Shown: positions 3,051-7,793 of the stretch, piece after piece | Numbering within the stretch: position 1 is the first letter of the stretch | How the letters are laid out: each line of letters opens with the position of its first letter | Origin: Streptomyces sp. R21 | GTDB lineage: Bacteria; Actinomycetota; Actinomycetes; Streptomycetales; Streptomycetaceae | DNA length: 64,000 nt | Direction of reading: 5' to 3' | NCBI RefSeq assembly: GCF_041051975.1 | Contig: NZ_CP163435.1 | Span: 806,001-870,000, forward strand | Notes under the pieces: generated by a model | Database searches by the model: none | Told to the model about the DNA's origin: nothing | Seen by the model: the letters and a program-made list of their open reading frames with translations, nothing else | Program-made: the position numbers and the translations under genes

Positions 3051-3170
3051 ATGGCACTCCTCGACCTGCAGACGATGGAAGCCGACGAGATGGGCGGTGG
3101 CGGCGGTGGCGCCAGCACACTGAGCCTGCTCTCCTGCATCTCCGCGGCGAGCCTTCTGCTCTGTCTCTGA
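3051..3170 (+). CDS. ramS: RamS/AmfS-like class III lanthipeptide precursor (39 aa)
   Basis: Short gene between ramC and ramA, preceded by AGGAAAGGA 6-7 bases before the ATG. The leader starts MALLDLQTMEADEM, very like the AmfS/RamS leader (LLDLQ is the motif recognised by class III synthetases). It is followed by six glycines at residues 15-20. The C-terminal core STLSLLSCISAASLLLCL (residues 22-39) contains two Ser-x2-Ser-x3-Cys motifs, STLSLLSC and SAASLLLC, the pattern turned into two rings in SapB. The product is expected to be a hydrophobic two-ring surfactant peptide needed for aerial hyphae. Compared with SapB the core is shorter and the leader more glycine-rich. Confidence 0.93.
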   Translation: MALLDLQTMEADEMGGGGGGASTLSLLSCISAASLLLCL

Positions 3171-3276: not shown

Positions 3277-5073
3277 ATGACGACTCCTGCCGACACGACG
3301 ACTTCCGCTCCCGACGCGCCCACAGTCACCGCGCCCTCCCGCGCCTCGGGCGCGCTGCTGCGGGCGGCCACCCGGCACAGCGGAGTCCGCTGCCTCGCCC
3401 TGGGCCTCGCCACCACGGCCGCGACGGCGGCGGGCCTGCTCCTGCCGGCCGCCCTGGGCCGGGCCCTCGACCTCCTGCTGACGGATCCCGGCGGGGCGCC
3501 GGCCACGCGCTGGGTGCTGTGGTGCACCGGCCTCGTCCTGCTGCTGGCCGTGCTCGACGCCTGCGAGACCGTACTCGGCGGGACCACGAACGCGCGGGCC
3601 ACGGCGTGGCTGCGTGAGCGCCTGGCCGGGCATGTCCTGGCGGTGGGGCCACGGGCCGTGACCCGGTTCGGCTCCGGTGAGCTGGTGGCCCGGCTGGTCG
3701 GCAACGCGGCGCAGGCGGGGACCGCGCCCGCCGCGTTCGCGGCGCTCCTCTCAGCGATCGCCGCGCCGGTCGGCGCCGTGGTGGCGCTCGCGCTGATCGA
3801 TCCCTGGCTGGCAGCGGTGTTCCTCGGCGGGGCTCCGGTGCTCACGCTGCTGCTGCGTGCCTTCGCTCGCGACTCCTCGCAGTGCGTGGCGCGCTACCAG
3901 GAGGTGCAGGGGCGGATCGCGGGCGGTCTGGCGGAGGCGATCGGCGGATTCCGTACGATCGCGGCCGGCGGCACCGCCGACAAGGAGGTCGCGCGCGTTC
4001 TGCGGCCGCTTCCCGAACTCTCCCGCGAGGGCCACCGCATGTGGCGTGTCCAGGGGCGCGCCGCCGCCCAGGCCGTCGCCGTGGCGCCACTGCTGCACCT
4101 GGGCGTCCTCGCCGTGGCGGGCATCCTGCTCGTCCACCACCGGTTGTCGGTCGGCGACCTGCTCGCGGCGTCCCGTTACGCGGTCCTCGCGAGCGGTGTC
4201 GGCGTCCTGGTCGGTCACATCTCGGGGCTCGTCCGGGCGCGAGTGGCGGCCCGGCGGCTGGGCGAGGTCCTCGACGAGCCCGCGACCGACCACGGGACAC
4301 GCCGACTGCCGCCCGGCCAAGGAGCGTTGGAGCTGCGCGGCGTGATCGCCCGGCGCGGCACACGCACCGTGCTGGACGGAGTCGACCTGGTCGTCCCCGG
4401 CGGAACCACCCTTGCCGTAGTGGGCCGTTCGGGCGCCGGCAAGTCGGTCCTCGCGGCGCTCGCCGGGCGGCTGGCCGACCCCGACGGTGGCGACGTGCTC
4501 CTCGACGGAGTGCCCCTGCGCGAGTTGGACCACGATGAGCTGCGCCGTGCGGTCGGGTACGCCTTCGAACGGCCCGCACTGCTCGGCGGGAGCATCGCGA
4601 ACACGATCGGCTTCGGCGTCGCGTCGCCGCCGGCCCCGCGGATCAGGGAGGCCGCCCGCACGGCGTGCGCGGACACCTTCGTGCGCCGGCTGCCCGAGGG
4701 ATACGCCACCGCCTGCGCCGACGCCCCGCTCTCCGGCGGCGAGTCCCAACGCCTTGGTCTCGCCCGGGCGTTCGCGCACGGCGGTCGGCTCCTCATCCTC
4801 GACGACGCCCTCTCCAGCCTCGACACCGTCACCGAGCACCACATCGCACAGGCCCTCTTCCGCCGCACCCCCGGCAGCAGCCGCCTGATCGTCGCGCACC
4901 GGGCCTCCACGGCGGCCCGGGCGGACGCGGTGGCCTGGCTGGACGAGGGACGGGTACGGGCGCTGGGCCCGCACGCCGAGCTGTGGCGGATACCGGCGTA
5001 CCGGGAAGTGTTCGGGGCTGGGGACACCGAGCAGCAGGACGGCGGTCCGGCACCGGCGGGCGGGGGCTCATGA
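3277..5073 (+). CDS. ramA: RamA-type ABC exporter half-transporter
   Basis: 598-residue fused membrane and ATPase half-transporter. The N-terminal half holds about six hydrophobic segments (residues about 30-320). The nucleotide-binding domain has Walker A GRSGAGKS at 383-390, signature LSGGESQR near 485 and Walker B LLILDDALSS near 505. It is expected to pair with RamB to export the mature lanthipeptide. Its stop overlaps the ramB start in an ATGA, indicating translational coupling. The start at 3277 follows the ramS hairpin by 46 bases and has GAGG-like sequence upstream. Confidence 0.9.
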   Translation: MTTPADTTTSAPDAPTVTAPSRASGALLRAATRHSGVRCLALGLATTAATAAGLLLPAALGRALDLLLTDPGGAPATRWVLWCTGLVLLLAVLDACETVLGGTTNARATAWLRERLAGHVLAVGPRAVTRFGSGELVARLVGNAAQAGTAPAAFAALLSAIAAPVGAVVALALIDPWLAAVFLGGAPVLTLLLRAFARDSSQCVARYQEVQGRIAGGLAEAIGGFRTIAAGGTADKEVARVLRPLPELSREGHRMWRVQGRAAAQAVAVAPLLHLGVLAVAGILLVHHRLSVGDLLAASRYAVLASGVGVLVGHISGLVRARVAARRLGEVLDEPATDHGTRRLPPGQGALELRGVIARRGTRTVLDGVDLVVPGGTTLAVVGRSGAGKSVLAALAGRLADPDGGDVLLDGVPLRELDHDELRRAVGYAFERPALLGGSIANTIGFGVASPPAPRIREAARTACADTFVRRLPEGYATACADAPLSGGESQRLGLARAFAHGGRLLILDDALSSLDTVTEHHIAQALFRRTPGSSRLIVAHRASTAARADAVAWLDEGRVRALGPHAELWRIPAYREVFGAGDTEQQDGGPAPAGGGS

Positions 5074-7028
5074 CGGGGAAGCAGCGGCCCATGACGGGCG
5101 GTTTCGGCGATGTGCGTGGGCGCGGCCTGCGGTTTCTGCGCGAGCGGTGGCCGGTGGTCGTCCGGCTGGCCGCGTGGTCGGTGCTGGAGACGGGGCAGAC
5201 GTTCCTGATGGGGTACGCGCTGGCACGGGCCCTGGACAAGGGGTTCCTGAGCGGACGGACCCACGTCGGCCTCGGGTGGCTCGGGGTCGCCGCGCTCGCC
5301 GTGATCGTCGGGGCGTACGGCACGGGGCGGGTGTACGGGGCCGTCGCGGCGCTGGTCGAGCCGTTGCGCGACCGGCTGGTGCGACACGTGGTGGAGCGCG
5401 GGGTGCGGGAGGCGGACAGCGGGGCGCTGTCCGGGCTCACCCAGCAGGTGGAGATCGCGCGGGACACCTTCGCCGGGCTGGTGATGGTCTCGCGCGCGTT
5501 CCTCTTCACCTCCGTGGGCGCCCTGGTCGGGCTGTTCTCCCTCGACCCGTTGCTGCTGCTCGTGGTCGCTCCGCCGCTCGCCGCCGGGGTCGCCCTCTTC
5601 GCCGCGACGCTGCGCCCGCTGGCCCGCCGCCAGGAGAAGTTCCTGGTGACCGACGAGGAGATCGCCGCCCAACTGGGCGCCGTCTGCCCGGGGTTGCGGG
5701 ACATCACCGCGGCCGGCGCGGAGGAGCCGGTCGCCGCCGACCTGGGCGAGCGCATCGACGCCGAGCTGCGCGCCGCGCGGTCGCTGGCCCGCTGGGGCGT
5801 CCCGCGCGTCGCCTCCCTCGCCGTCGGCGGCCAGCTCCCGATCGTCCTGCTGCTCGCCGCCGCCCCGTGGCTGCTGCGCCGCGGTGTCACTCCGGGCGCC
5901 CTGGTCGGCGCCCTCGCCTACGTCACCCAGTCCCTGCTTCCCGCCCTGCAGAACCTGGTCCACGGCCTGGGCACGAGCGGCTCCCGCCTCCTGGTCGTGC
6001 TGCGCCGCCTCGCGCCCGAAGCGGCTTCGGAGGAGTCGGCCGGGGCACGCACGATCGATGTGTCCGCCGATGCCGATACGGCTGCCGATGCGGCGTCCAG
6101 CGGCCCCGAAGCCCCCGTGCGGCGCGCCGCCCCGGCCCCCCGCCCCCCGGCGATCGCCCTCTCCTCGCTCACCTTCGCCTACGGCCCCACCAGTGATCCG
6201 GTCATCAAGGACCTCAGCCTCACCGTCCCGCAGGGCACACACCTCGCGGTCGTGGGCCCCAGCGGCATCGGGAAGTCCACCCTCGCGGGTCTGGTCGCCG
6301 GACTGCTGGAGCCGCGGCACGGAACCGTCCGGTTGTGCGGACATCCGGTGCCAGGGCGCACATCCTCCACCCATCGCGTCCTCATCCCGCAGGAGGCGTA
6401 CGTCTTCAGCGGATCCCTCGAAGAAAACCTCGGTCAACTACGGCCGGATCCCGTGCCCGAGGCGGAACTGCTGGCCGCGGCGGAGGCGGTCGGGCTCGCC
6501 CCACTGCTGCACGAGTGGGGCGGGCCGGCAGCCCGGATCGACCCGGCGACGCTGTCGGCGGGCGAACGCCAGCTGATCGCGCTGACCCGCGCCCACCTGT
6601 CGTACGCGCCGGTCGTGCTGCTGGACGAGGCGACCTGTCACCTGGACGCGGTGGCCGAGGAGCGGGCGGAGCGCGCCTTCGTCGACCGGCCCGGCACCAC
6701 GCTCGTCGTCGTCGCCCATCGCATCAGCTCGGCCCGCCGTGCCGACCACGTCCTCGTCATGGACGGCCGCCACGCCGAGTACGGCGACCACGACGAGCTG
6801 ACCCGTCGCTCGCCGCTCTACCGCGACCTGGTCGGCACCTGGTCCCCCGAGGTCAGGGCCGCGAGGTCATACCCATCCCTCACCCTGGGAGATGCGGATG
6901 GCGTCGATGCGGTTGCGCGCCCCGGTCTTCCGGGTGATGGCCGCCATGTAGTTGCGTACCGTCCCGTGGGACAGATGGAGACTTCCGGCGATCTCCGCGA
7001 CGGAGGCACCCTCGGCGGCAAGGGATAA
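5070..7028 (+). CDS. ramB: RamB-type ABC exporter half-transporter
   Basis: Second half-transporter of the SapB-type exporter, 652 residues. Hydrophobic segments occupy about residues 20-310. The ATPase domain has Walker A GPSGIGKS near 397, a degenerate signature LSAGERQL near 498 and Walker B VVLLDEATC near 517. The start ATG at 5070 overlaps the ramA stop. An open frame beginning further upstream in the same phase is read-through of ramA in another frame. The last roughly 54 codons (from about 6867) overlap ramR on the opposite strand and look like non-homologous tail rather than ABC sequence. The stop TAA at 7026-7028 is the complement of a TTA codon in ramR. Confidence 0.9.
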   Translation: MTGKQRPMTGGFGDVRGRGLRFLRERWPVVVRLAAWSVLETGQTFLMGYALARALDKGFLSGRTHVGLGWLGVAALAVIVGAYGTGRVYGAVAALVEPLRDRLVRHVVERGVREADSGALSGLTQQVEIARDTFAGLVMVSRAFLFTSVGALVGLFSLDPLLLLVVAPPLAAGVALFAATLRPLARRQEKFLVTDEEIAAQLGAVCPGLRDITAAGAEEPVAADLGERIDAELRAARSLARWGVPRVASLAVGGQLPIVLLLAAAPWLLRRGVTPGALVGALAYVTQSLLPALQNLVHGLGTSGSRLLVVLRRLAPEAASEESAGARTIDVSADADTAADAASSGPEAPVRRAAPAPRPPAIALSSLTFAYGPTSDPVIKDLSLTVPQGTHLAVVGPSGIGKSTLAGLVAGLLEPRHGTVRLCGHPVPGRTSSTHRVLIPQEAYVFSGSLEENLGQLRPDPVPEAELLAAAEAVGLAPLLHEWGGPAARIDPATLSAGERQLIALTRAHLSYAPVVLLDEATCHLDAVAEERAERAFVDRPGTTLVVVAHRISSARRADHVLVMDGRHAEYGDHDELTRRSPLYRDLVGTWSPEVRAARSYPSLTLGDADGVDAVARPGLPGDGRHVVAYRPVGQMETSGDLRDGGTLGGKG

Positions 7029-7475
7029 CACGCTCAGCTCGCGCCGGGTCAGCGGCATCTCGGCGGCCTTGAGGAAGCCGAAGCCGAGCGAGTCGTCGAC
7101 GTAACGTTTCCCCGCGGCGACCTGGCGGATGCCGGACACCAGCCGGTCCGGCGAACCTTCCTTGGCGACGTACCCGAGCGCGCCGGCCTCCGCGGCCCGT
7201 CTGAGCAGCCCGGGCCGGTTCGCGCCGGCCAGCACGAGGAGCCGCGGAACCGCGGGATCCGGGCGCCTGGCGCAGAGATCGGCGAGCGGTGGGAGCCCGT
7301 AGGGGTCCGCGCATTCCAGGTCCGCCGCGCAGACGTCCGGCCGTACCGTACGCACCTGCGGAGACGCGCTGCGCCAGGGTGCGTCGAACACCCTGAAGTC
7401 GGGTTCACGGCGTAACCACTCCGCCAACGCCAACCGCACCAGACATTCGTCGTGCACCAGAAGTACCCGGATCAC
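6867..7475 (-). CDS. ramR: RamR/AmfR-type response regulator, activator of the ram operon
   Basis: 202 residues: N-terminal receiver domain (about 1-120) and C-terminal LuxR/NarL helix-turn-helix (TRRELSVLSLAAEGASVAEI onward, about 142-195). The acidic pocket is altered: the usual DD is HD at residues 8-9. VAKEG near 104 holds the conserved receiver lysine. RamR/AmfR are orphan regulators that switch on ramCSAB. Codons 21 (7413-7415) and 150 (7026-7028) are TTA, the leucine codon read by the developmental tRNA encoded by bldA. Convergent with ramB and overlapping its 3' end by 162 bp. Confidence 0.9.
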   Translation of the reverse strand: MIRVLLVHDECLVRLALAEWLRREPDFRVFDAPWRSASPQVRTVRPDVCAADLECADPYGLPPLADLCARRPDPAVPRLLVLAGANRPGLLRRAAEAGALGYVAKEGSPDRLVSGIRQVAAGKRYVDDSLGFGFLKAAEMPLTRRELSVLSLAAEGASVAEIAGSLHLSHGTVRNYMAAITRKTGARNRIDAIRISQGEGWV

Positions 7476-7793
7476 GTCTGCCCCTCAACTCGCCGCTAGC
7501 CGGTGTTTCCGTCACTTGCCGATTGCCGGTATCCCCGACATCAGCGACTGCCCATTGTTTGGCGCATGTCACCGTTCCGGTGCGCGAAGAACCGGCCAAG
7601 AGGGGGCGTGGGGGCGCACGGGGAGCGCCCCCGGTCCCCTTCGCGCTTCGACACGCGAGGCATGACTTCGGGTCGACGGGGTAAACACCCGCCTCGCCCG
7701 TCGCCGCCCTCGCTCGCCGTGCAGGAAGGGCCACCAGGAGAGAGCCTTGACCCCTGGGACTGGTCGCGAGGCCCTTGCGAGGAGGTGGTCGGC
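7476..7793. other. Divergent intergenic region between ramR and the SpoIIE-like gene
   Basis: 318 bases between two divergent starts. It contains an AdpA-like box (listed separately), no recognisable RNA gene, and no convincing short gene. The large open frame of the phosphatase extends through it, but no ribosome binding site supports a start earlier than 7794. Confidence 0.6.
7589..7598 (-). promoter_or_regulatory. Candidate AdpA-binding site upstream of ramR
   Basis: Reverse-strand TGGCCGGTTC matches the AdpA consensus TGGCSNGWWY at every position. It lies 114 bases upstream of the ramR start. In S. griseus the ramR orthologue amfR is a known AdpA target, so the location is plausible. The motif is degenerate, so a chance match cannot be excluded. 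Confidence 0.45.

Follow-up and report, generated by a model that had tools for sequence, protein, structure and literature searches.

In Streptomyces sp. R21, the stop codon of the SapB exporter gene ramB and a TTA codon of the convergent regulatory gene ramR are one and the same triplet, and its distribution over the genus is probably the outcome of two pressures on it, with ramB needing a stop and ramR favoring TTA over CTA. The triplet is situated in the ram/amf (SapB) cluster of the window (i.e., the whole 64,000-nucleotide stretch of DNA that was analyzed), where the following features were located:

281–2986, + strand: ramC, class III lanthionine synthetase (NF038151 above cut-off; RamC_N)
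3051–3170, + strand: ramS, lanthipeptide precursor of the SapB/AmfS family, 39 aa (NF033212 above cut-off)
3277–5073, + strand: ramA, ABC exporter subunit, 598 aa (ABC_tran), without TTA codon
5070–7028, + strand: ramB, ABC exporter subunit, 652 aa (PF00005, ABC_tran; NCBIfam ABC exporter models below cut-off)
6867–7475, – strand: ramR, response regulator, 202 aa, GTG start (Response_reg and LuxR-type HTH, i.e., GerE, residues 141–195)
6867–7028, both strands: overlap of 162 bp between the 3′ ends of ramB and ramR, codons aligned in antisense (123:321, phase 0)
6867–7025, + strand: RamB tail (residues 600–652), encoded wholly within ramR, opposite the HTH region
7026–7028, both strands: shared triplet, read as the ramB stop (TAA) on the + strand and as ramR codon 150 (TTA, Leu) on the – strand
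7413–7415, – strand: codon 21 of ramR, its other TTA, where the ramB frame meets its next in-frame stop

The ramB stop codon coincides with a TTA codon of ramR

With a lanthionine synthetase, a precursor, two ABC exporter genes and a convergent LuxR-type regulator in a fitting gene order, the locus can be recognized as a SapB cluster. Its ramB and ramR genes are located on opposite strands and overlap at their 3′ ends with aligned codons, as is typical of the convergent overlap class of phase 123:321. The original prediction had placed a tail-to-tail overlap of 162 bp at 6867–7028 and had equated the ramB TAA at 7026–7028 with the TTA of ramR codon 150, and both the overlap and the identity of the base pairs were confirmed. 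Regarding the two overlapping frames, the HTH of ramR is conserved; the RamB tail is without a family match (RamB family matches stop by approximately residue 592), but synonymous change opposite this tail is reduced.

In this phase the codons of ramB and ramR pair one to one as reverse complements, and within ramR the ramB frame can meet a stop only at TTA, CTA or TCA. The ramR gene of this genome is devoid of CTA and TCA codons, leaving its two TTAs as the sole in-frame ramB stops inside ramR, with the next one 128 codons past 7028 on ramR codon 21. Judged by the codon use of ramA plus the ramB core in the fetched loci (TTA 10, CTA 95, TCA 232), TTA would make up approximately 3% of such stops, vs. 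approximately 56% when judged by the use of ramR itself outside codons 147, 150 and 151 (TTA 109, CTA 25, TCA 62). Given the overlap and its frame, ramR-like codon use thus renders TTA as a stop unremarkable for ramR. The TTA/TAA coincidence in a single genome, being partly forced by the phase, is weak evidence of anything; what does exceed chance is the species distribution of TTA150 (i.e., TTA at ramR codon 150) relative to where ramB ends.

The end point of ramB across Streptomyces

Our sample comprised 203 loci (53, 29 and 120 from three search sets, plus the window), from which removal of 12 duplicates with identical ramR DNA left 191 distinct ramR genes; a RamB match adjoins 175 of these. 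The first set of relatives contained 64 loci, 11 of which (L062–L072, distant or non-Streptomyces) were not used, while the genome set consisted of the best 150 of 184 matching genomes (own genome included), with 208 of 392 having no match at 1e-48. The ends of ramB were located with a RamB core query (residues 1–599); matches to the whole RamB extend into the antisense frame of ramR. The tree was without an outgroup root, left 50 of 168 inner branches open and is limited in its use by long branches. It excludes L180, L195, L200 and L203, in which a stop falls inside the RamB match, although all four are counted among the 57 loci with ramB ending before ramR. A mixture-model tree was also built for the near clade of 102 rows.

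Sixteen of the 191 ramR genes were without a RamB match beside them, including those of L081 and L110, which lie at contig ends and both carry TTA150. In L115, ramR (501–1103) was found with ramC (4012–1466) and no RamA or RamB match in the fetched stretch, and this ram cluster may lack the exporter. The ramR-like genes of L165, L166, L179, L183, L184, L186–L188, L190 and L193 (54–60% identity, TTA at codon 4 and/or 44) have no RamA, RamC or strong RamB nearby (L165 has one weak RamB match of 32%) and are perhaps stand-alone paralogues.

Among the 175 loci with RamB, 60 have the ramB end at aligned codon 150 (TTA/TAA in 58, CTA/TAG in 2) and 37 at Ser151 (all TCA/TGA), so that Leu150 or Ser151 serves in 97. 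The remaining ends are at codon 147 (4 loci, with L112, L117 and L148 using TTA147), elsewhere in the same phase (10), in another phase (7) or before ramR (57). The overlap measures 159–171 bp in most overlapping loci. The original prediction had allowed for the overlap being a recent accident, which can be rejected, as the neighboring 159-bp version on TCA151 occurs in 37 loci, many of them distant. This TCA151 state, spread over distant branches of a tree without outgroup root, may be ancestral. Its loss rate of 0.58 (0.30–0.82) is below that of TCA108 (3.1; 1.5–7.4), and TCA151 is rare where it does not serve as stop (2/138).

In L074, TTA150 and TCA151 stand side by side as two adjoining stops in the ramB frame, of which TCA151, one codon before 150, is the active one; this double-stop state may represent an intermediate between the TGA state and the TAA state. 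In L180, the RamB match is interrupted by a stop 489 bases before ramR, and ramB is probably broken; TCA151 is still present in ramR.

TTA150 in relation to the end of ramB

Codon 150 of ramR is a leucine codon in 191/191 genes, and nothing in the protein sequence would thus keep it from being TTA. The original prediction had asked whether TTA is kept here only where the genes overlap, and indeed TTA150 is almost exclusive to loci in which it provides the ramB end (58 of the 60 loci with a ramB end at codon 150 vs. 1 of the other 115). Relatives with TTA150 but without the overlap, named beforehand as refuting the idea, were encountered in none of the 57 loci with ramB ending before ramR. Put differently, among the 108 loci whose ramB stops short of codon 150, TTA150 occurs once (L074); among the other 67 it occurs 58 times, the latter figure being partly true by construction, since a ramB ending on codon 150 must see either TTA or CTA there.

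When independent pairs were compared on the tree with loci ending past codon 150 left out, none spoke for and 5.6 of 7 spoke against TTA150 when ramB is free (median p 0.031); with those loci kept, the outcome was none for and 5.2 of 9 against (median p 0.0625). The mixture-model tree of the near clade yielded none for and 5.5 of 7 against, and the same test on the control codons TTA44, TTA67 and TTA79 revealed no link with the ramB end. The tree-corrected support for the link between TTA150 and the ramB end amounts to 7 to 9 supported pairs only and is modest.

The minimum number of TTA150 changes was 16 for the full tree and 12 for the mixture-model tree. Within the near clade, TTA150 was lost in L084, L090 and L021, where ramB ends 5–33 bases before ramR. 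It was also lost in L094, where ramB is in another phase and ramR is left without any TTA. L034, L039 and L100 have lost it as well, and their ramB continues as far as a TCA at aligned codon 108 or 129. The expectation that synonymous removal of the TTA would usually destroy the ramB stop holds for four of the five other leucine codons and fails for CTA, which retains the stop as TAG in 2 of the 60 loci (L019 and L113, whose ramR genes carry another TTA, at codons 79 and 67, respectively).

TTA150 was lost at a rate of 0.95 per unit branch (0.67–1.22), vs. 0.33 for TTA44, 1.08 for TTA67, 2.46 for TTA79 and 1.56 for TTA112, with wide intervals. A strict evolutionary lock, in which TTA150 would outlast the other TTAs of ramR, is unsupported, as its loss rate is not clearly below those of TTA44, TTA67 and TTA112.

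TTA preference of ramR and predicted bldA dependence

The ramR gene has at least one TTA in 138 of 175 loci (95 when codons 147 and 150 are set aside), compared with 3 of 174 for ramA. Outside codons 147 and 150, its TTA:CTA ratio of 109:25 differs from that of ramA (3:38 in 174 loci), the ramB core (7:57 in 178 loci) and ramC (21:16 in 138 loci), with Fisher tests on these TTA/CTA tables yielding 1e-10 or less when ancestry is ignored. Free-standing ramB stops (i.e., before ramR) are TGA in 47, TAG in 10 and TAA in 0 of 57 loci, vs. a TAA:TAG ratio of 58:2 on Leu150, which argues that the preference for TAA does not stem from ramB. On the tree, a CTA-dominated equilibrium with 9.5% TTA at Leu150 fell 3.4 log units short of the best value (97%); parity of TTA and CTA at this codon fell 1.7 log units short and was not rejected.

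Other TTAs of ramR are found across species at codons 44, 67, 79, 112, 4 and 21, often without the overlap. TTA44, present in 29 of 191 ramR genes, is conserved in a distant group in which ramR mostly starts with ATG and ramB mostly ends before ramR. TTA150 is the sole TTA of ramR in 37 of 59 TTA150 loci. Possible compensation, with fewer other TTAs beside TTA150 (22/59 vs. 79/116; Fisher 1.7e-4), vanished after tree correction (median p 0.375).

In-frame TTA codons, by which bldA-dependent genes are recognized, are present in ramR at codons 21 and 150, and a single pattern match for a tRNA-Leu with anticodon TAA was found in the genome and confirmed by ARAGORN. The original prediction had let one triplet both terminate ramB and impose bldA dependence on ramR. 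Its first half stands; for this genome, predicted bldA dependence resting on codon 150 alone had to be rejected, because codon 21 is also TTA and the dependence would survive the loss of codon 150.

Possible constraint opposite the RamB tail

At the four-fold sites of ramR, the ratio of change in codons 152–195 to that in codons 2–146 was 0.80 (0.75–0.85) in 77 overlapping near-clade loci and 1.09 (0.96–1.22) in 20 non-overlapping ones, the bootstrap resampling sequences rather than lineages. Both sets were alike in protein distance (0.226 and 0.233) and in change in the body of the gene (0.383 and 0.375). Over all loci, the ratios were 0.86 with and 1.03 without overlap. This suggests some constraint on either the RamB tail or the RNA.

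Possible explanations for the shared triplet

The interpretation advanced in the original prediction is partly supported, in that the history of the triplet over the genus, as read from these sequences, would fit pressure from both genes. In the explanation that we consider likely, the convergent ends of ramB and ramR overlap with aligned codons, and ramB could end in ramR only at TTA, CTA or TCA. On the ramB side, a stop would be wanted at codon 150, because without it ramB is 21 to 42 codons longer in three relatives and would be 128 codons longer here. On the ramR side, TTA would be preferred to CTA as in the rest of the gene, most likely because the UUA codon would delay synthesis of the SapB regulator until the bldA tRNA is available. 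A direct mechanism linking both reading events would be unnecessary.

A more far-reaching version, in which the rare codon was captured by the stop of its neighbor, is conceivable but doubtful. Leu150 would then have become TTA for the sake of the ramB stop, replacing the TGA on TCA151 that distant relatives have, and this would have made or kept the SapB regulator bldA-dependent, and TTA150 would disappear when ramB escapes. If so, the stop of the exporter alone would carry the developmental control of the regulator in the 37 of 59 loci where TTA150 is the sole TTA.

A plainer account, which we deem unlikely, dispenses with any pressure on ramR: ramB lost its own stop long ago and simply ends at whatever TTA, CTA or TCA ramR happens to have. 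Mutation of the stop codon is the usual origin of convergent overlaps (PMC2174442, available in part), the phase admits only the three codons mentioned, and ramR-like codon use predicts the TTA share of approximately 56%. The loss of TTA150, moreover, is no slower than that of other ramR TTAs. However, TTA150 should then persist where ramB ends upstream, as TTA44, TTA67 and TTA79 do, and it did so in 1 of 108 loci. The conservation of TCA151 in stop service and its rarity elsewhere (2/138) likewise run counter to this account.

Gene pairs under antisense regulation, with overlapping transcripts that affect each other, are referred to as excludon-like. It is improbable, though conceivable, that the ramB/ramR pair behaves in this way, with read-through RNA from ramCSAB pairing with the 3′ end of the ramR mRNA and damping its own activator, possibly via RNase III (AbsB). 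The shared triplet would then be a side effect, and the lower synonymous change in the overlap would reflect RNA pairing rather than the RamB tail. The transcripts may indeed overlap, as a simple scan revealed no terminator-like site in 6600–7700, a result that says little with 0.4 sites expected by chance. In S. coelicolor, ramR mRNA is higher in absB mutants, but purified AbsB did not cleave ramR RNA on its own, and AdpA was indicated as the route (PMC2936110, available in part). Pairing, furthermore, would be perfect whatever the sequence, and conserved codons are not predicted by pairing itself.

Finally, it is hardly credible that the link merely reflects shared ancestry, with TTA150 having arisen once or a few times in an overlap-bearing clade: TTA150 is confined to the near clade and clustered there, and the forks of the tree are partly ill-supported, but the number of changes counted on both trees and the nested losses that coincide with a new ramB end (elsewhere in L084, L090, L021 and L094; further on in L034, L039 and L100) speak against it.

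Implications and comparison with known systems

If the need of ramB for a stop and the preference of ramR for TTA do jointly shape this triplet, a rare regulatory codon would be held in place by the need of a gene on the opposite strand, which would bear on how TTA codons are placed in Streptomyces developmental genes. Nature provides a contrast set in the form of TTA/TAA, CTA/TAG, TCA/TGA and escaped loci. In engineered strains in which TTA150 of ramR is recoded, ramB should be checked, as most synonymous changes would extend the exporter into the antisense strand of the regulator. Our literature search of open-licence papers found no prior account of a shared TTA/stop triplet. Convergent overlaps are a known kind, as are TTA codons under bldA control, and it is their meeting in one conserved triplet that makes a new combination.

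The cluster resembles the ram/amf cluster of S. coelicolor in the order and orientation of ramCSAB with a convergent ramR and in its RamR of 202 aa; RamB has 652 aa here vs. 608 aa in S. coelicolor, a difference that approximates the tail inside ramR (PMC10090380 and PMC4255298, both available in part). According to the accessible text of PMC2174442, 33% of those convergent overlaps that span at least 5 bases are in phase 123:321, and mutation of the stop codon is the favored origin. The ramB/ramR pair shares with those overlaps the opposite orientation, the overlapping 3′ ends and the phase. Unlike the overlaps described in that text, the ramB stop is also a regulatory rare codon of its partner, the overlap is long, and its end point is conserved over the genus.

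A TTA codon in amfR/ramR was noted in 7 of 12 Streptomyces, with the S. coelicolor gene being TTA-free (accessible part of PMC4255298). As a developmental regulator carrying TTA, ramR resembles the bldA-dependent genes treated in the available portions of PMC4255298 and PMC2936110, among which adpA is the case of a positionally conserved TTA. In contrast to adpA as presented there, the TTA of ramR moves between codons, and its placement at codon 150 tracks the stop of the opposite-strand gene.
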